A stretch of 64,000 nucleotides of DNA from Methylacidiphilum caldifontis (lineage in GTDB: Bacteria > Verrucomicrobiota > Verrucomicrobiia > Methylacidiphilales > Methylacidiphilaceae), in contig NZ_CP065957.1 in NCBI RefSeq assembly GCF_017310505.1, positions 1,054,001-1,118,000 on the forward strand, given 5' to 3'. The number at the start of each line of letters is the position of its first letter. Position 1 is the stretch's first letter. Below are positions 19,403-29,594 of the stretch, piece after piece. The translations under genes and the position numbers were made by a program. Below the pieces are notes generated by a model. The model did no database searches. It was not told the DNA's origin and saw nothing but the letters and a program-made list of their open reading frames with translations.

Positions 19403-20698
19403 GAATAAGTCCAATAATAAAAAGGGAAGGTAATATACGATAGAAAAGCATTTGCCCAAAAGAGCTTTTTTTTCTTTTATAGAAAAAGAAATTTTATCTC
19501 TTTTTTAGGTTACAATTTAGAGGGTAAGAAAACCAAAACAAAAGATAGTTACTTTTCTTTCTAAAGCATGGATCAAAAAAAGCTAAATTTAAATAAAGAT
19601 CGGCTGCCTATCTCCAACCCAATTTTTTGGTTCTTCTATCGTTACTTTCTATATCTATCTCGATTGGGAACTCCTAAAAAATCATTTTTTTTTCTTCTTT
19701 ATTCCTTGATGAAGATCGCGATCAGCTCTTTTCCAGAACCAGGAAAGAAAAATACCTTCCAGGGGAATACCCCGTAGCCATACAAGATTTATCTAAGAAA
19801 CTGACATGATACCCTTTTAGAGTTTTTTTTGCGTTTAATGGCTTTGGGCTAGGAACTCATACTCAGCTCCTTGGGTCATCAAACAGTTACAAACTTCTTT
19901 TATGCCCGGTTGCTTGGGATATAATTAAAGCCTTGTTGGCCAATCAAAACAGGGTACCGGTGTAAAATGTTTTGGCCTTATTTTACTGCCACTGAAGCTG
20001 GATTTATTGGCTTGAGAACTACCCAAGCTAGCCATAAAAAAGAAAAAATCCAAGTTCAATAGCCTAGCTCAAAAACTTTTCCTTTTAAAGCCCGAGCAGC
20101 TAAAAACCTGTATTCAGTCATTGCAGCCAGCATTACTGGAAGGAAAAGGACTAACTCCTAACAGCCGAAAGATTTCTTTGATGGCTGAAAAGCTAGCTCC
20201 ATTCCCTAACCCAATGTTACCCAGTTCACTAATCAAAACTTGCTTCCACTTTTGAGCAACAAAAAAATCTTCGGCCACTTGTCCCGGAGCCTAATTTGAT
20301 CCTTTGAGGGGTATAATAGTCTTGGGGATAAAGCTTGGATACTTGTGTAATTTTTTTTAAGATCTTTAGGATCCATCCAGAAGAAAAACGGTACTCGGCT
20401 CTTTTGTAAGACCATTTTCCTAAAATTGATCCCATCTTATCAAAGACATTTTGATTTCTTCTGCTTTCTTCCTATACTGTGTCCTGTAGCCTTGCTTGAA
20501 GAAAGATATTGTTCATCATTCCTTTTTTTACTGATCATTTTGATTGCAGATATTAACAGCTAACCTTTCATTCATTTGTACACGCAAGCTTGCCCCGTTA
20601 TTGCCTTGTTATGTATGTCTAGGGCATTATTTTCTTTTTTTTAAACTCCAAGAGGAGGATGATGAACGGAGGCTACAATATTGGCTTTTTTTCTCTTT
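19403..20698. other. 1.3-kb gene-poor region of unknown content
   Basis: No recognisable gene. A plus-strand stretch from about 20060 to 20254 stays open for over 60 codons (containing PEQLKTCIQSLQPALLEGKG), without a good start, and may be a decayed gene of mobile origin; I cannot name a family. The 69-codon frame at 19568-19777 lacks any recognised motif. The frame at 20544-20759 reads through the antisense of a tRNA gene and is spurious. Confidence 0.4.
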
Positions 20699-21459: not shown

Positions 21460-22680
21460 TCAAACAAATTGATCTAGCTTAAAAGCGTCATGGACTACCT
21501 GTGCTGCCTTCTTTCCTACTTCCTCATCGATGATCACTGCAATTTTTATTTCGCTTGTCGAAATCATTTGCACGTTTATACCCGCTTCAGCTAGTGCAGA
21601 AAAAAGAAGAGCAGCTACCCCACTATGTGATCGCATCCCTATTCCCACCACGGAGAGTTTGGCTATACCCTCTGTAGCCCGAACCTCCCGGGCACCAATT
21701 TCGCTAACAATAGGTTCAAGAGCAACTAGGGCTTTTTTAAGCCAATCTTTGTGCACAGTAAAAGTAATATCGGTTAACCCATGATCGGAAATGTTTTGAA
21801 CGATCATATCGACGTTAATCTCAGCTTCAGCAATCCTGCTGAATACCTTGGCAGCAATACCCGGTTTATCGGGAACACCTAAAATAGTGACTTTGGCTTG
21901 GTTAGGCTCCAAGCTAACCGCTCTCACAACTACTTTTTCCATCGTATGCACCTCTTCTTTCACTATTGTCCCGGCAGCATTCGTAAAACTCGAACGCACC
22001 TCAAAAGGCACCTTAAACTTTTTGGCAAATTCTACCGACCTAGCCTGCATCACTTTCGAACCTGAAGCGGCCATTTCCAATAGCTCATCATAGCTGATCT
22101 CCTTTATTTTTCTGGCCGTAGGAACAATCCGAGGATCAGCCGTAAACACCCCTTCTACATCCGTGTAGATCTGACAGCATTGGGCATGAATAACAGCGGC
22201 TAAGGCTATGGCGGTCAGGTCTGATCCACCTCTGCCTAAGGTAGTTATATGCCCTTCGACGTTTTGTCCTTGAAAACCTGCTACGACCACCACGTTACGG
22301 AGTCTTAAAAGTTCCTTGATCTTTTTTGGACTTATATTAAGGATTTTTGCCCTCGTATGCCGACCGTCGGTAATGATTCCGGCTTGAGCTCCCGTCAACG
22401 AAACAGCGGGAATTTTCAGGGCATGAAGAGCGATCGACAAAAGGGCTATGGTGGTCTGTTCGCCGGTAGAAAGGAGCACATCAATTTCTCTTTCTGAAGG
22501 TTCAGGATGGAGCTGAGAGGCTAGTTTCAAAAGCTGATCCGTTACTCCTGACATTGCTGAAACAACCACCACGAGGTCATGGCCTTGACGGTAAAATTCA
22601 GCTATGTGTTGTGCCACTTTTTTTATCCGCTCAACACTCCCAACAGAAGTCCCTCCATATTTTTGAACAAAGAGAGCCAT
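21460..22680 (-). CDS. lysC: Aspartate kinase
   Basis: 406 residues, a usual length for monofunctional aspartokinase. VQKYGGTSVGSVERI at the start and GRGGSDLTAIALA in the centre are the kinase motifs. The C-terminal 140 residues contain two ACT domains (VTILGVPDKPGIAAKVF, LSVVGIGMRSHSGVAALLF) that bind lysine and/or threonine as feedback inhibitors. It phosphorylates aspartate, the first step toward lysine, methionine, threonine and diaminopimelate. It has its own sigma-70-like promoter (22716-22744), and AGAGGAA before the ATG is the ribosome site. Two candidate anti-Shine-Dalgarno small RNAs lie just upstream on the same strand. Confidence 0.95.
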   Translation of the reverse strand: MALFVQKYGGTSVGSVERIKKVAQHIAEFYRQGHDLVVVVSAMSGVTDQLLKLASQLHPEPSEREIDVLLSTGEQTTIALLSIALHALKIPAVSLTGAQAGIITDGRHTRAKILNISPKKIKELLRLRNVVVVAGFQGQNVEGHITTLGRGGSDLTAIALAAVIHAQCCQIYTDVEGVFTADPRIVPTARKIKEISYDELLEMAASGSKVMQARSVEFAKKFKVPFEVRSSFTNAAGTIVKEEVHTMEKVVVRAVSLEPNQAKVTILGVPDKPGIAAKVFSRIAEAEINVDMIVQNISDHGLTDITFTVHKDWLKKALVALEPIVSEIGAREVRATEGIAKLSVVGIGMRSHSGVAALLFSALAEAGINVQMISTSEIKIAVIIDEEVGKKAAQVVHDAFKLDQFV

Positions 22681-22715
22681 TTCCTCTACTTTTCCCTTTC
22701 TTTATAAAGAACATT

Positions 22716-22744
22716 TATATAACAAAAGGTTAAAAAAATTGCAA
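22716..22744 (-). promoter_or_regulatory. Sigma-70-type promoter of lysC
   Basis: On the minus strand TTGCAA (22739-22744) and TATATA (22716-22721) are separated by 17 bp. The expected start of transcription near 22709 leaves a leader of about 30 nt. It lies downstream of the terminator at 22794-22828, so lysC need not be read from the small RNAs upstream. Confidence 0.7.
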
Positions 22745-22793: not shown

Positions 22794-22858
22794 AAAAAAA
22801 AAGGGCGGCACATTTTCATGCGCCGCCCGGCCGGGAATCGTCAGAGGAGGAAAACGAT
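22794..22858 (-). ncRNA. Candidate small RNA 2: anti-Shine-Dalgarno hairpin plus terminator
   Basis: Read on the minus strand, a 5-bp stem (22837-22841 with 22854-22858) closes a 12-nt loop containing CCUCCUC, complementary to a strong ribosome-binding sequence. Eight bases later comes a strong terminator: GGGCGGC/GCCGCCC (22803-22809 with 22822-22828), an inner 3-bp helix, and nine U. A TTGAAC box lies at 22905-22910 with TATCAA 19 bp on, a weak promoter match. The arrangement recalls the anti-SD loops of alphaproteobacterial cuckoo-type RNAs. Existence as an RNA is inferred; the structure is read directly. Confidence 0.5.
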
Positions 22859-22944
22859 CATTTAGAGGTTATTCATATATTGATACACCGTGATTTTTGA
22901 GTTTGTTCAAAAATTTTTATATCCTGCAGAAAGAGCTACATTTT

Positions 22945-23014
22945 AAAATAAATAAGGGCAGCAAGCCTAGCTGCCCTTTATCAACTTGTAACCTAGAGGA
23001 GGAGGAAACAAATT
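22945..23014 (-). ncRNA. Candidate small RNA 1: anti-Shine-Dalgarno hairpin plus terminator
   Basis: On the minus strand, a 7-bp stem (22983-22989 with 23008-23014, one G-U pair) and an inner CCU/AGG helix expose an apical loop with CCUCCUCU. A terminator-like hairpin follows: a 9-bp stem, GGGCAGC/GCTGCCC with two flanking A-T pairs (22954-22962 with 22970-22978), then AUUUAUUUU. A TTGAAC box is at 23051-23056, as in the second copy. The two elements differ in stem sequence but share the loop and order, which suggests selection on the design rather than simple duplication. The terminator could also serve the porin gene upstream. Confidence 0.5.
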
Positions 23015-23120
23015 CTTTTCTATTTTTTAAACGATCCTTCCTGACTATCCGTTCAATTTTTTTTAAAGGAATTTTTTTCTTTTTGCAGTCTCTTTTCTTA
23101 TTTTTTCATAAATAGAATCT

Positions 23121-24761
23121 TTAATAGCTATAAACAACGTCTACAGCCACAAACCAAAAAGGACCACTTGAAGGTTGAGCTAGCCCATTACCGTTCAGTC
23201 CCACAGCAGAGGGTGATATCCCGGCTGCCGGATAATACCAGTTCATGAACCCCTTGCCATAATCAGCCCGGTTTTCAATTCGAACCATAAAGTTATCCGC
23301 CAAATCAAACCGCCAATCCACAGTCACACTGTAAATATCCATGGGGAAAAGCATATCTGAAAAAATCTGATTACGGTTCGCATGATCGTACTGCTCTCTC
23401 CAAGCCATGCTAAAAACTTTGTTAAACTTGTAGATCTGATAAATAGAAATACCAAAAAAGCTAGTCGACCCTTCAAACCCATATAAGGGATAATTCACAG
23501 GAAAAACAAGTAGAGCATTTTGTTGGGCTGCACCCAGTTGAGCAATCCCCGATGGACCTATCCGATTAGAAAACCCCCCGACCAGTTCATAGGCAAACTC
23601 AAGCTTCTGGTCTTTAACAAACTTCGGAATCCAAGTCCCAAAATCGTTAAACTCCATAAACAGTCCATTATTATTGTAAGCCGAAGGAACGATGTCTCCT
23701 CCAATGTCATATGCTCCTACATAACTGCCATTGGGGCTCGTTCCAAACCCTGGAGGATTGACTCCATTGGGAGCAAACGCATACCCAAAGGTATTGAGAA
23801 AAAGTTTATCCTTGGATACGTAATCCCACATGTTAAATAACACAACTCCTTCTCCACTATTGATCATGTTATTGGTATAGCCAAAATAAGGATACCCGGC
23901 CCTAGCTACGTTCCAACCCCCGTTGGTCACTCCCCAACGAGTTGTCCAATTATCATTGAACTTGTAGAAGACTTCACCCCCAACCATAGTGAAGGGTTCG
24001 AAGTTATTGAAAAGAATTCCATAAGAAAAGTTAAAGTTTGCAGGTCTTTCCATGACTTCCAATCCAATGGGTGAGGCAAACTGACCGATATGAATTTCTA
24101 AACTTTTATCGCCAATGGGAGCTTTGAACTGGACATAAGCCTGTTCAAGAAATATGCCACTCGAATTAAAGCCTATTCCAGAATTAAATGCATTGCCGAT
24201 TCCTGTTACCGCATCGGGCTCACCTAGGGCTGCGTCCTGGCCAAAAATCATATCCACCCTAAATCCAGCCTGCCATTTATTTTCATCAGTAAGTGGTTTT
24301 TCTAACGCCACCTTGAGCTGATTGAAGTTAAACGCTCCTCCCGGTATTCCATCGGTGGTAAACCGCAAGGGAAGAGCCGGATATGAAGGAACAAAAGGAT
24401 GTGCAGCAACTGGACCATGCAGTCCACTCGTTGCGGGATTTGCAAAAACTGCCGGTATCTGGTTGAAGGAGGGAGCTGCTATAAAATTATAGGTATAGCT
24501 AGCCTCCACATACCCACTTAATTTAATGCCTGGATTATTTGCTTGAACCGCGGCAATGCCTTCTTCTTCAAGAATTTTCTTTAGATTTTCAACTTCCTTG
24601 GATGACCCCAAAGCTTCAGGATTTTGAAGTTCTATACTCTGCGTGGATGAAGGTTCCACGCTTTCTTTCTCGCCTTCAACTTCCCCCGCATAACTTCCAG
24701 GAAATACTCCTAATAAGAGACAAAATATAAACACTCCAACCGCTCTTATGCTCATCTTCAT
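23121..24761 (-). CDS. Beta-barrel porin (BBP2/OmpL-like), copy 1
   Basis: About 546 residues. The start at 24761 gives MKMSIRAVGVFIFCLLLG with a signal peptide ending at SYAG, behind AAAGGA; the longer frame lacks a ribosome site. A short coiled coil (SSKEVENLKKILEEEGI) precedes the barrel, which begins IKLSGYVEASYTYNFIAAP and ends in VAVDVVYSY, an outer-membrane C-terminus with aromatic last residue. It is strongly similar throughout to the two porins upstream (ALEKPLTDENKWQAGFR, DLADNFMVRIENRADYGKG). It probably forms a passive outer-membrane pore. It is the last gene of a three-porin run, 46 bp after copy 2. Confidence 0.82.
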   Translation of the reverse strand: MKMSIRAVGVFIFCLLLGVFPGSYAGEVEGEKESVEPSSTQSIELQNPEALGSSKEVENLKKILEEEGIAAVQANNPGIKLSGYVEASYTYNFIAAPSFNQIPAVFANPATSGLHGPVAAHPFVPSYPALPLRFTTDGIPGGAFNFNQLKVALEKPLTDENKWQAGFRVDMIFGQDAALGEPDAVTGIGNAFNSGIGFNSSGIFLEQAYVQFKAPIGDKSLEIHIGQFASPIGLEVMERPANFNFSYGILFNNFEPFTMVGGEVFYKFNDNWTTRWGVTNGGWNVARAGYPYFGYTNNMINSGEGVVLFNMWDYVSKDKLFLNTFGYAFAPNGVNPPGFGTSPNGSYVGAYDIGGDIVPSAYNNNGLFMEFNDFGTWIPKFVKDQKLEFAYELVGGFSNRIGPSGIAQLGAAQQNALLVFPVNYPLYGFEGSTSFFGISIYQIYKFNKVFSMAWREQYDHANRNQIFSDMLFPMDIYSVTVDWRFDLADNFMVRIENRADYGKGFMNWYYPAAGISPSAVGLNGNGLAQPSSGPFWFVAVDVVYSY

Positions 24762-24807
24762 TCTCGTTTTCCTTTTCGTATGAGACTTTTTGGTATTGAG
24801 GGACTGC

Positions 24808-26391
24808 TTAGAAGCTGTAGACAAACTCCAAGCCGACGAAATAAACCGGTCCATTCGACGTTCCTAGGAGAGCTGTTGGGCTACCCGTGGGGTTTTGGAA
24901 AGGAAAGCCGTAATAGCCGAGCACCCCTTTGCCCCAGTCCATCCTGTACTCAAGCCTAATCATGAAGTTATCCGCTAAATCAAACGCCATCGTCGCCGTG
25001 TACGCCCATATGTCAGTCGGTGCGTTATGCCCAGCCAGAATCGAGTTCCATCCCGACTCCATCCAGTCCATCCTTTGCGCTATGCTGATAATATCCGTTA
25101 TCTGGTATTTCATGTGCACTGATGCCCCATACCAGTTCGATGGTCCACTGGACAGGTCCAGCGGCAACCCACTCACAGCCGCCGGCACTACCGTCACGTT
25201 GTTGTTGTAAAATCCCCCCGTAAACTCAAACCCCAAGAGCAGCCGATCATGCGCAAACTTCGGCGCCCACGATCCCCATACATCCCCTAGAAAAAATGCA
25301 TTGTTCTGGTTAAATGGCCCTTCTCCCCTTATCCCCTGCGCTATCCCATAAGGCTGCGCTACCCCATCTATCGGTGAGGCTCCAAAACCCGGAGGATTTA
25401 CCCCGTTAAACCCATACATCAACGTCGCACTAAGCGTCGCATTCTTCCCCTTCGCATCCCACTGGCTGTTCAAAAATAAAAGGTAAGCATCGTTGTTATT
25501 GATCATGTTGTTGAGATAACCAAAATATTCCATCCCCCCACGGGAAACATTAAATCCTCCATCGGCTATCCCAAACCGGCTCGTCCATTGGTCATCCCAC
25601 CGGTAGATCGCTTGCATCCCCGTTAGCGTCGTCGGCAAAAGATTGGCAAACAACAGTCCATAGGTAAAATCAAGGTTCACCGGCCGCTCCACCACTTCGT
25701 AACCGGCTGGATCCACAAACTTCCCAATCTTTATGTCCAACCCGTTGCCCACCGGTGCCCGAAATATCACGTAAGCCTGCTCAAGCCAAAAACTTGAAGT
25801 GTTAAACGAATACCAGGAACTCGATGGCACCCCAAGACCCGTGATCGCATCCGGAGCTCCAACAACCGCATCCTGTCCCACGATGAGATCAGCCCTAAAA
25901 CCTGCCTGCCAGCGGTTTTCATCGGTCAGCGGCTTTTCCAAGGCAAGCTTGAAGGCGTTCATGTTAAACCCTCCCCCCGGTATCGCATCCACCGGTTCCC
26001 TACCCGGGATCGCCGGGTAACCCTGGGCAAACCCTGCCGTATTGGTCGGTCCTACATAGCCCGGTGGAGGTACAAAACCTGGCACCTTGTTGAAAGCCGG
26101 TGCATTGATGAAATTGTAGGTGTAGCTAGCGTCCACATAGCCACTGAGCACTATCCCCTTGGTGTTCGCCTGCACCGGTATACCTTGGTCTTCAAGTTTC
26201 TTTGTCAACTCCTCGATCTGCTTGTCCTTCTCCTCAATGGCCTCAGAAACATTAGCCTGAGAAGTCTTCTTTGAGTGCTTCTTTTTGGAAGGTGGCGGCT
26301 GGGGTTGTTCTTCTTGGCAATAGCCAGAATAGCCTCCTAAACCTATACAAAGAAAAATCGCGTATAAAAGAAAACGGCTAATTCTAAACAC
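24808..26391 (-). CDS. Beta-barrel porin (BBP2/OmpL-like), copy 2
   Basis: 527 residues. I chose the GTG at 26389-26391, six bases after a strong GAGGAGG, which gives a signal peptide ending GYSGYC|Q; the longer frame from 26445 translates through that ribosome site. A Lys-rich, coiled-coil segment (IEEKDKQIEELTKKLEDQ) precedes VLSGYVDASYTYNFINAP. The barrel repeats family phrases: ALEKPLTDENRWQAGFRAD, LEQAYVIFRAPVG, FGYLNNMINNNDAY; it ends in VGLEFVYSF. C+G is higher here than in the flanking porins. A small hydrophilic-solute pore is the family role. The gene is in the middle of the tandem. Confidence 0.82.
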   Translation of the reverse strand: MFRISRFLLYAIFLCIGLGGYSGYCQEEQPQPPPSKKKHSKKTSQANVSEAIEEKDKQIEELTKKLEDQGIPVQANTKGIVLSGYVDASYTYNFINAPAFNKVPGFVPPPGYVGPTNTAGFAQGYPAIPGREPVDAIPGGGFNMNAFKLALEKPLTDENRWQAGFRADLIVGQDAVVGAPDAITGLGVPSSSWYSFNTSSFWLEQAYVIFRAPVGNGLDIKIGKFVDPAGYEVVERPVNLDFTYGLLFANLLPTTLTGMQAIYRWDDQWTSRFGIADGGFNVSRGGMEYFGYLNNMINNNDAYLLFLNSQWDAKGKNATLSATLMYGFNGVNPPGFGASPIDGVAQPYGIAQGIRGEGPFNQNNAFFLGDVWGSWAPKFAHDRLLLGFEFTGGFYNNNVTVVPAAVSGLPLDLSSGPSNWYGASVHMKYQITDIISIAQRMDWMESGWNSILAGHNAPTDIWAYTATMAFDLADNFMIRLEYRMDWGKGVLGYYGFPFQNPTGSPTALLGTSNGPVYFVGLEFVYSF

Positions 26392-26653
26392 TTCTTGCCT
26401 CCTCTTTTTAGATGTTAGCCCATAGAGATTTGCTCTAATACCCATACTCCTTTTTCCTAGAGTTGAATCAGAGAAATCTTTTTGGCTTTTTTGCCTAAAG
26501 CATCTTCTATGCCACAGGATAGAAAAAAGAAGAAAAGGGATGCACTCAAAAAAGAGGCTTTGGAAATTAAAAAGAGATCAATTTAATAGGGGAGAATTGT
26601 TTTTGAGTAGCCTTGAAGCAAATTTTTAAGATAAGCAAAAAAGTAATAAAAAG

Positions 26654-28258
26654 TTAATAGCTAAAGACGACTTCAATAGCGCTAAAGAAAATGGGACCGG
26701 AAGAAGAACCCACAAGTCCATTACCTTTAAGTCCTATACTTTGAGGATTAACAAGAAGGTTAGGTTGATAATAACCCACTACGTTATCTCCCCAATCCGC
26801 CCTCCACTCCATGCGTACCATGAAGTTATCAGCTAGGTCGAAACGAAGGGTCAGCGTTGTTTCCCAAATATTGGCAGGAAAAATAAACCCCTCAAGATAG
26901 GAATTCCAACTTGCTTGGAGGTACTGTTCCCGAAGGTTCAAGCTGGAAAAATTATTAAGCTTGTATACTTGGTATAGACCTACTCCAAACCAGTTGGTAG
27001 GCCCATCGTAACCAAATGAAAAAGGAAAAGGTGGAAATATCCCCAACAGTTCTTCCTGAGCAAGACCTAAAGCGGGTATCCCTCCAGGTGCAACGGCATG
27101 GTTATAAAAGCCGCCCACAAGTTCAAAACTAAACATCAGCCGCTCTCCAGGCACAAAAGAAGGAACCCAAGTTCCATAATCGTTGAGTTCCATGTAAGTC
27201 CCGTTATTGTTATAAGGACCAGGAATAATGTCCCCGTTGGCATAAGCACCAGGATAATTCAGTGCTGGGGCAGGAGAAGTTGCAAAACCAGGAGGGTTTG
27301 TCCCATTAAACCCGTAAAGCAGGGCAAAATTATTAAGGAGTTTTTTATCTTTCGAAGCATAATCCAGATTAAAGGTTACAAGATAAGCGGGCAGGTTATT
27401 GATCGTATTATCGAGAAATCCAAAATAAGGAAATCCTCCCCGGGAAGTATTAAATCCACCATTTACAAGCCCTCCCCTCACTCTCCATGATGGGTTTATC
27501 TGATAGTAAATTTGACTGCCGACAAGAACGAAAGGTTCAACGTTGTTAAAAAATAACCCATAGGTGAAATTGAGATTCCCCGGTCTTTCCAGGACTTCAA
27601 AACCAACGGGAGCTTCAAATTTTCCTAAGTGGATCTCTACTCTGTGCTCATCCCCTGCAGGAATCTGGAAAGCCGCGTAAGCCTGTTCAACGAATATTGT
27701 GGAGGTGTTGAATCCCAAGGTAGTCGAATTGGCGTTTCCAAAGCCTTCAACGGCATCGGGTACACCCAGTCCTGCATCCTGTCCAAGCATCAGGTCAAAA
27801 CGAAAAGCCCCATCAAACTTATTTTCCTGGCTCAGCTCCTTTTCCAGGACCACTTTTAGTTGATTTAAGTTAAATCCTCCACCAGGGATGCCATCATCAG
27901 CATAACGCAAAGGAGCAACGGGCACAGCTGGAGAGAATATCCTTTGCCCATTTAATCTTTGTGCGGGAAAAAGCGGGAGGTTCCCCAAAGCGGGTGCGTT
28001 GAAATAATTATAATCGTAGCTAGCATCAACATACCCGCTTAACTTTATAACGGGCTGCGGTTGCGGTACGGCAATCCCGCCCTCTTCAAGGATTTTTTCA
28101 AGTTTTTCTATGTCCACAGAACTGCCTACAACAGCCGGTAAGTCCTGAGACTCGCTATCCTGCGCAGAAAACCCCGTTTTATTTGTTTCTGCTGCCTTTC
28201 CCATGCCGAGGAGGAATAAAAACAATCCAAACATAGAAAAAAGCCTGCCTAACACCAT
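26654..28258 (-). CDS. Beta-barrel porin (BBP2/OmpL-like), copy 3
   Basis: About 534 residues from the ATG at 28258, giving MVLGRLFSMFGLFLFLLGMGKA as signal peptide; earlier in-frame starts would put about 40 charged residues before it. A coiled coil (VDIEKLEKILEEGG) precedes KLSGYVDASYDYNYFNAP. The barrel shares FNLNQLKVVLEKELSQENKF, VEIHLGKFEAPVGFEVLERP and FDLADNFMVRMEWRADWGD with its neighbours, and ends in AIEVVFSY. It is the first intact gene of the tandem; 26392-26653 separates it from copy 2. The remnant of a fourth copy lies upstream at 28711-28800. Confidence 0.82.
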   Translation of the reverse strand: MVLGRLFSMFGLFLFLLGMGKAAETNKTGFSAQDSESQDLPAVVGSSVDIEKLEKILEEGGIAVPQPQPVIKLSGYVDASYDYNYFNAPALGNLPLFPAQRLNGQRIFSPAVPVAPLRYADDGIPGGGFNLNQLKVVLEKELSQENKFDGAFRFDLMLGQDAGLGVPDAVEGFGNANSTTLGFNTSTIFVEQAYAAFQIPAGDEHRVEIHLGKFEAPVGFEVLERPGNLNFTYGLFFNNVEPFVLVGSQIYYQINPSWRVRGGLVNGGFNTSRGGFPYFGFLDNTINNLPAYLVTFNLDYASKDKKLLNNFALLYGFNGTNPPGFATSPAPALNYPGAYANGDIIPGPYNNNGTYMELNDYGTWVPSFVPGERLMFSFELVGGFYNHAVAPGGIPALGLAQEELLGIFPPFPFSFGYDGPTNWFGVGLYQVYKLNNFSSLNLREQYLQASWNSYLEGFIFPANIWETTLTLRFDLADNFMVRMEWRADWGDNVVGYYQPNLLVNPQSIGLKGNGLVGSSSGPIFFSAIEVVFSY

Positions 28259-29594
28259 TTCTATTCGTTTTAATTTTATTTCCTTGGTGTTTTGAGTCGT
28301 CCACGCTCGGCTGTTCATGCTTAAAGCACTAAACAAGTTTTTTTTCCTCAAACGCCAGGAGTTTTTCCAGGGAAAGATCAATATAACCCTTCATAAAATC
28401 TTTCAGGCAATGTGTCTTATTCTCGTTATATCTAGTAGATAGCGTTGTAGCAAACCCTTATAGTTCTGGCTTATGCAATCCATGGAGTTGTCCAAAACCG
28501 ATACTCCGTAGCAAAGGCTAAGGTATTCATACAAGGTGTTGAAAGGATCAAATCCATATAGCCTTTGGTAACAACGAGTTGTGAGTTTATCTCTGGCTGT
28601 ATTCCCAGCTCTTTACTTTTATGAAAAGTTGCACCATAGGGGATTGCTTCTCGGAGATGCGGTCAGCTGTTTTGCAAGAACCTTATTCTTTGAACAAAGT
28701 TTTGGGAAATTCATACATCCCGGAAATGACAAAAAAAAAGGTCCCAATTCCTATACCGGGAGATAATCGGACATAAAAGAAAGCGGTTTATCGTAAGCAC
28801 CGTATACCTCCTCTTTTTTGGCTGTTAATCTATAGAGATTAGCCCTAATCCTCTCATTTTTAGCTCAAACAAGATAGAAAAATATTATTGGCTCTTTTGC
28901 TTATAGATTTTGTGACAAAGGATAGAAAAAAGAAGGAAAGGCATGAACTTAAAAAAGTAGGATTTGAAATCAATAAAGTATAAACAAAATCGATTGATCA
29001 TGAGAAAGGAATTTTAGTTTACGAAATCTGATTAGCTTGTTGTTCCAGAAGAAAAGAAAGAAAATCCTTGTGATGAATTAAATGCAAAATCATAATTTTT
29101 TAGTTTTTTTTATCTTTTCCTCGCTTTTGTTAATATTTTGTTAATAACTTGGTTTTATCTCCACTCATAAGAATGAAAAAGCTTATGAACCATTTGCAGA
29201 CTGCCTACTATAAGAGCAGCTGGCAAAGAAGATAGCAGGGGAAGCTCTTGCCTGACCGCTGGAATCAGCCCCTATGGGCTGAAGAGTTGTCCCAGTCCAA
29301 GAACTTTCACAAGGAGTGATGATCAAAGCCAGTGTCGCTTTCAGCGATCAGAAGAGAAACTTGTTCTGGCATTTAGCTCCAGATTCGTATGTTATGATCG
29401 TGCTCGGTTTTTTTTCCTCTTCCTTGCTGTAAACCAAAGGCATCCGGACTCAATGATCGACAAAAAAGAAATTGATCTTGTTGCTTAAGGATCTCAGCTA
29501 AACAATCGATCATAGCGTCGGATAACAGGGATCGATTGATCAGTTCCAGATCAAACACATTCAAGAAAATTTAATTCTGTGACGTTCGAAGTCC
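28259..29594. other. 1.3-kb region upstream of the porin tandem with a decayed porin start
   Basis: The only identified content is the porin remnant and its conserved 5' flank (28711-28990). A plus-strand frame (28581-28766) and a minus-strand frame (29373-29564) have no motif I recognise and are probably chance. Several short repeats of ATCGATTG occur near 29460-29540, without clear meaning. Confidence 0.45.
28711..28800 (-). pseudogene. 5' remnant of a fourth porin gene
   Basis: On the minus strand GAGGAGG is followed by GTG (28798-28800) and codons reading VLTINRFLLCPII, which align with the start of porin copy 2 (VFRISRFLLYAIF). The frame then diverges and stops after 29 codons. The similarity continues upstream for about 190 bp (28801-28990 against 26392-26590), including the block AGGATAGAAAAAAGAAG. 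So a promoter region, ribosome site and signal-peptide start survive while the barrel is gone. Confidence 0.6.

Follow-up and report, generated by a model that had tools for sequence, protein, structure and literature searches.

Anti-Shine-Dalgarno (anti-SD) small RNAs (sRNAs) have been described from Alphaproteobacteria as cuckoo RNAs, alpha-r14 (NfeR1) and CcsR1-4. These are short, trans-acting, carry an ultraconserved anti-SD in hairpin loops and occur in several copies per genome, arranged in tandem arrays that include a gene for a small protein, and they have stress-linked promoters (PMC10746234, PMC10253847). NfeR1 covers ribosome sites and silences ntrB via its anti-SD seeds (PMC10746234). 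In the suhB/MmgR family (RF00519, alpha-r8), a 77-nt RNA has an anti-SD near the first loop, a GC-rich terminator and a long U tail, and MmgR is Hfq-dependent (PMC7143759). The sigma-E sRNAs MicA and RybB, and FoxI and FoxJ of Fusobacterium nucleatum, have an extracytoplasmic function (ECF)-type promoter, a length of ~70-80 nt and an intrinsic terminator (PMC1804206, PMC11005410). In F. nucleatum, which has no Hfq, FoxI and FoxJ carry a C-rich seed, and under sigma-E control both of them repress a porin (PMC11005410). Here, two tandem units were analysed on the minus strand of a 64,000-nucleotide stretch of the acidophilic verrucomicrobial methanotroph Methylacidiphilum caldifontis (NZ_CP065957.1, positions 1,054,001 to 1,118,000; hereafter the window). 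They belong to a family of sRNA-like genes which resembles these RNAs in several of the features listed and which probably works like the anti-SD sRNAs and is regulated like the sigma-E sRNAs.

Comparison with each of the described systems also showed clear differences. The identical CCUCCUCCC 9-mer of cuckoo RNAs, alpha-r14 and CcsR (defined in PMC10746234) was absent, and the members had UUCCUCCUC(U/A) or UUUCCUCCUCCUCU in the aligned cores. One anti-SD hairpin with a terminator was found here as opposed to three in cuckoo RNAs, and the stem was nearly invariant whereas the cuckoo stem is hypervariable. CcsR and CIN1 have an RpoH promoter and a co-transcribed DUF1127 gene, whereas the present copies have an ECF-type AAC/CGT module and, in arrays, a coiled-coil open reading frame (ORF) with no DUF1127 match. 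Unlike in cuckoo RNAs and CcsR, a separate promoter and terminator accompany every copy, and Hfq was undetected. The cuckoo-type comparison made in the first-pass annotation holds as an analogy of mechanism but not as family membership, because the 9-mer is missing and the stem is not hypervariable. Copy 2 scored 24.3 bits with RF00519 against a gathering score of 41, and no match was obtained in the related loci searched, Methylacidimicrobium members included. Compared with MicA, RybB, FoxI and FoxJ, the present family has a complete anti-SD as its seed, no sequence relation is claimed, and sigma dependence and porin repression are only putative. Judged by these sequence comparisons, the family belongs to none of the named families tested. 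An Rfam scan of the window gave nothing at gathering threshold but one tRNA elsewhere, and neither the literature searched nor Rfam at gathering threshold yielded a trans-acting sRNA family already described from Methylacidiphilaceae.

Anatomy and conservation of the two porin-lysC units

The Methylacidiphilum genome that contains the window (G000) is a single contig of 2.25 Mb, and both units lie in the spacer between a BBP2-type porin gene and lysC. The first-pass annotation had proposed two tandem units, each with an anti-SD, a terminator and a TTGAAC box, and all of these elements were recovered on the minus strand with their coordinates confirmed. Judging by their conservation, the units are very probably real sRNA genes, each with its own promoter and terminator.

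Copy 1 extended from promoter to terminator at 22946..23056 (minus strand), and its anti-SD, terminator and promoter-like boxes were kept in five Methylacidiphilum genomes. The -35-like box TTGAAC (23051..23056), containing the ECF-type AAC, was invariant within the genus, as was the CGTTTAA of the -10-like box CGTTTAAA (23026..23033), located 17 nt past GAAC. The anti-SD segment TTTCCTCCTCCTC (22996..23008) included GTTTCCTCCTCCTCTAG, which was invariant in the five genomes. The Rho-independent-type terminator (22945..22978; stem 22978-22954 and a T-rich tail) was conserved, with one pair changed on both sides. The stem-loop described earlier was present in this genome, but the anti-SD was unpaired or folded otherwise in three of four relatives, which indicates at sequence level that copy 1 retains the anti-SD and the terminator and not hairpin 1. 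The promoter and terminator positions predict an RNA at about 23020-22946 (~72-75 nt).

Copy 2 (22794..22910, minus strand) scored 100 bits with covariance model R1, which is introduced below. It carries a -35-like box TTGAAC (22905..22910), a -10-like box TGTATCAA (22880..22887) again 17 nt past GAAC, and hairpin 1 (22836..22859) with the anti-SD loop UUCCUCCUCU, in which the core UCCUCCUC was invariant. The stem (22859-22853/22842-22836) was present as first annotated but has 7 bp instead of 5 bp. The 10-mer TTTCCTCCTC was located at 22853-22844 in the loop region of this hairpin. A Rho-independent-type terminator follows (22794..22828; stem 22828-22803, then nine T), and the predicted RNA, placed by the promoter and terminator positions, would extend over about 22874-22796 (~75-80 nt). 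Both units folded better than dinucleotide shuffles (z -3.4 to -4.5).

The 10-mer TTTCCTCCTC occurred 21 times in the genome vs 16 times for the reversed control and was not enriched, so that the motif alone carries no meaning and its enrichment was rejected as stand-alone evidence. An upstream box, a flanking stem and a terminator occurred together at only two of the 21 sites, which were copies 1 and 2. Alignment of the spacer from the five genomes showed that conservation was concentrated in the two TTGAAC boxes and their partner boxes 17 nt further downstream, in the anti-SD cores of both copies and in the terminators. The proportion of invariant columns per 20 nt was 0.9-1.0 in the anti-SD cores compared to 0.65-0.75 in the adjacent porin ORF, and dropped to 0-0.2 in the DNA between the copies. 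The copy 2 segment GATCGTTTTCCTCCTCTGACGATTCCCGG was identical in all five genomes. Two other candidates were rejected: a CCTCCTC at 20652, after a tRNA, had no stem and no terminator, and the start codon of a possible leader peptide in copy 2 (ATG-ATC-GTT-TTC-CTC-CTC-TGA) was missing in G004 and in Methylacidimicrobium.

These conservation data bear on the explanation that the hairpins are ordinary terminators of the porin 3' end in which a CCUCC core occurs by chance. Copy 1 lies immediately behind the stop codon of the porin gene, and porin and sRNA are linked in both genera, as this would predict; however, conservation of the anti-SD core exceeded that of the terminators and of the flanking coding sequence, and the unit with its promoter module was also found away from porins, which makes the explanation very unlikely. 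Loss of the loop in relatives that keep the terminators had been named as the outcome that would count against sRNAs, and the opposite was obtained, in that the anti-SD was better conserved than any other part across 12 genomes from two genera.

The upstream neighbour is the BBP2-type beta-barrel porin gene (23121..24758, minus strand; PF07642, E 2.4e-29), which is one of three tandem paralogous porin-like genes (23121-28381, minus strand), and the sRNAs were found only after the last one. The downstream neighbour (21460..22680, minus strand) is presumably lysC (aspartate kinase), a name given by protein similarity. A probable separate lysC promoter, as already suggested in the first-pass annotation, was found downstream of copy 2 with a -10 region TGTTATATAA (22715..22724, minus strand), in which the TTGTTATA box was conserved in the five genomes.

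Spread, gene contexts and structure of the family

A covariance model (R1) was built from eight copy 2-type sequences. The search for relatives proposed earlier was made with it and produced 34 homologues, copy 2 (22794-22869, minus strand) and 33 further members, in 12 of 12 searched Methylacidiphilum and Methylacidimicrobium genomes. No member was found in G005, which represents a third genus of the family Methylacidiphilaceae. The search was widened to the order (62 genomes) and the class (384 genomes). The inspected matches in the order outside the family (≤33 bits) were GC-rich terminators without the loop, and the best outside match in the class (G243, 39.6 bits) was a terminator after a coding region, also without the loop. 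An exact-pattern scan of 84,980 species showed the unit only in Methylacidiphilaceae, with five further matches that had no promoter and terminator, and a pattern scan of viral contigs found none. Members outside Methylacidiphilaceae were thus rejected, as the inspected matches were either terminators without the loop or the pattern without promoter and terminator.

Methylacidimicrobium genomes had up to nine copies each. In G006, seven copies lay within 3.4 kb, interleaved with short ORFs for coiled-coil proteins (MDWPQTLTLLGG...) that contain a varying number of EQVDKRF repeats. Arrays of this kind (L082, G006:C1:1517500-1525500; L083; L085) consisted of tandem sRNA genes with a coiled-coil ORF of ~90-130 aa (MDWPQTLTLLGGLAAILFSLFHQ...), and the EQVDKRF repeat count differed per copy. 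Overall, three contexts recurred, namely porin-lysC, PAP2-glnA and the tandem arrays with coiled-coil ORFs. At the PAP2-glnA locus (e.g. L084 of Methylacidimicrobium) the sRNA and glnA converge and no same-strand gene lies downstream of the sRNA, so the RNA cannot be a leader there. Three unrelated contexts including the glnA locus argue for a free-standing, trans-acting RNA.

This arrangement also bears on the explanation that the hairpins are a cis-acting 5' leader or attenuator controlling read-through into the downstream gene, which would be lysC in the window and the coiled-coil ORF in the arrays. That lysC comes after copy 2, and that the array ORFs start at a fairly constant ~70-115 nt past each terminator, would agree with a leader. 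Apart from the PAP2-glnA locus, however, the distance from the element to lysC varied from about 115 to 290 nt, other ORFs separate the two in G006, and lysC retains its own conserved promoter-like box. A leader function was considered quite unlikely.

In each full-length R1 member the anti-SD UCCUCCUC was invariant and the hairpin around it nearly so, and a terminator with compensatory changes followed. Standard pairs made up 98.7% of cells in the alignment of 34 members, of which 31 were distinct. Compensatory stem changes around a conserved loop had been suggested as a test and were found in the terminator, where 6 pairs had changes on both sides, but not in stem 1. Stem 1 was paired in 100% of cells of the 31 distinct sequences, with 3 pairs invariant, 4 varying on one side only and 0 on both sides, and its changes were pairing-neutral (A-U/G-U, U-G/U-A and C-G/U-G). 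The whole structure had 28 double-changed cells compared to 8.6 +/- 2.2 in shuffles; the alignment was fitted to the R1 model, hence these pair counts lean towards structure, and a smaller MAFFT alignment agrees. Covariation further bears on whether the units are a repeat element or a protein-binding DNA site, similar to a repetitive extragenic palindrome and without RNA function. The multiple copies, the tandem arrays and the several near-identical copies in G006-G008 are consistent with such an element; on the other side stand the excess of double changes over shuffles, the fixed order of promoter, anti-SD and terminator, flanks that share nothing else, and syntenic single copies kept between genera. 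A repeat or binding site of this kind is highly improbable.

Upstream promoter module and candidate sigma factors

The recurrence of TTGAAC at both copies, noticed in the first-pass annotation, was refined to the -35 half of a module with fixed spacing. The hallmark of an ECF promoter is AAC at -35 and CGT at -10 (review, PMC8103513), and in 33 of 33 members GAAC-N17-NGT was found upstream with an exact 17-nt gap, the spacer sequence itself not being invariant. The GAAC and the GT were thus invariant in all 33, and the consensus of the module was TTTTGAAC-N17-CGTC(A/T)(A/C)A. The sigma-E promoters of micA and rybB carry GGAACTTTT and a GTCAAA -10 (PMC1804206), and many sRNA copies had exactly GTCAAA at -10. 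The strict module TTTGAAC-N17-CGTY was matched 19 times in four Methylacidimicrobium genomes, all 19 times ahead of an sRNA copy, compared to 3 matches for the reversed control. Control of the sRNAs by an ECF-type sigma factor is likely on this sequence evidence.

The module also bears on whether the sRNAs could be trans-acting RNAs made with the housekeeping sigma factor and tied to nitrogen or amino-acid metabolism instead of envelope stress. The glnA and lysC neighbours and a perfect AGAGGAGGAAA ribosome site at glnA of G004 point in that direction. Nonetheless, the module fits AAC/CGT and has no TATAAT-like -10, and no sigma-70 site was called at either TTGAAC box, so that this origin appears unlikely.

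Some results weigh against ECF-driven sRNAs. The relaxed module was not exclusive in Methylacidiphilum, where G000 had 4 matches, two of them these sRNAs, compared to 3 in the control. No ECF gene examined had the module in its own promoter, and the search for an autoregulated ECF gene bearing it found none. An RpoE-like ECF gene was also present in G005, a genome without the sRNA. Finally, stem 1 is too invariant to give covariation proof, the candidate targets described below were selected because they match the loop, which makes their strong pairing circular and leaves them as hypotheses, and the pairing of the window genes, including the porins and lysC considered as targets, was not outstanding.

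Two kinds of ECF locus were observed in both genera. In the first, an RpoE-like ECF gene is followed by a putative anti-sigma gene with a single transmembrane segment and then by an HtrA/DegS-family protease gene (L119, G000:C1 ~1784.5 kb; L124, G007:C1 ~1864.9 kb), and this cluster is possibly a sigma-E envelope-stress operon of Verrucomicrobiota. In the second, a further ECF gene lies between TolC-like and RND-transporter genes (L297, L299, L304) with no obvious anti-sigma gene. This second ECF gene was favoured at first as the partner, since both genera have it and G005 does not, but was judged weak, as it has relatives in sRNA-less genomes throughout the order.

Ribosome mimicry, candidate targets and proposed role

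The 16S rRNA 3' end reads ...GGATCACCTCCTT in both genera. The conserved sequence was identical to the 16S anti-SD core in the 34 members, with accessibility predicted by folding, and since the loop equals this core it can be read as a mimic of the ribosome. Anti-SD pairing is, from these sequences, the probable mechanism. Hfq (PF17209) was not found in 6 genomes while control genomes were positive, and pairing with mRNA would consequently be Hfq-free.

In addition to the glnA site of G004, exact AGAGGAGGAAA was present at the translation start of a signal-peptide barrel-like protein (MKRRKTLRYL..., codons 2-5) in four Methylacidiphilum genomes, of a SYLF-like exported protein in G000, and of a second exported protein in G003 and G004. 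In four species the barrel-like gene (L241, L257, L246, L271) had the identical ribosome site AAGAAGGAGGA and, over codons 1-5, the identical ATGAAGAGGAGGAAAAC, so that two purine tracts are complementary to the sRNA loop. The labels barrel-like, SYLF-like and exported are our own reading of the protein sequences, and a short Pfam query with three candidate target proteins gave no match.

The favoured reading, held with reasonable confidence, is that of ECF-driven, Hfq-free, trans-acting anti-SD sRNAs which repress translation. Each copy would be a free-standing gene for a non-coding, trans-acting sRNA of ~72-80 nt, initiated by RNA polymerase with an ECF sigma factor of the sigma-E type at the AAC/CGT promoter and ended at its own intrinsic terminator. 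The UCCUCCUC core, shown in the hairpin loop (copy 2 type) or unpaired (copy 1), would imitate the 16S rRNA 3' end, pair at translation starts with stretches rich in purines that resemble AGAGGAGGAAA, and block the ribosome. Outer-membrane and exported proteins would be among the likely clients, and in a response to envelope or acid/heat stress the sRNAs may act as the repressive arm. A link to the envelope is suggested because of the ECF-type module, the constant porin neighbour and the RpoE-like ECF/anti-sigma/HtrA/DegS-like cluster in both genera, none of which proves the circuit, and an envelope-stress role is put forward tentatively. More doubtful is a dedicated circuit in Hfq-less Verrucomicrobiota methanotrophs, in which an ECF sigma factor would have a multicopy ribosome-mimicking RNA (up to nine genes) as its main output and thereby a purely RNA-based translation brake on envelope and other mRNAs under stress.

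If the favoured reading is true, Hfq-free anti-SD riboregulation under an ECF-type promoter arose in a further lineage, beyond the Alphaproteobacteria for anti-SD sRNAs and the Proteobacteria and Fusobacteriota for sigma-E sRNAs, which would point to convergent evolution. For volcanic methanotrophs, in which regulation is little known, the family would provide a compact promoter-RNA module.
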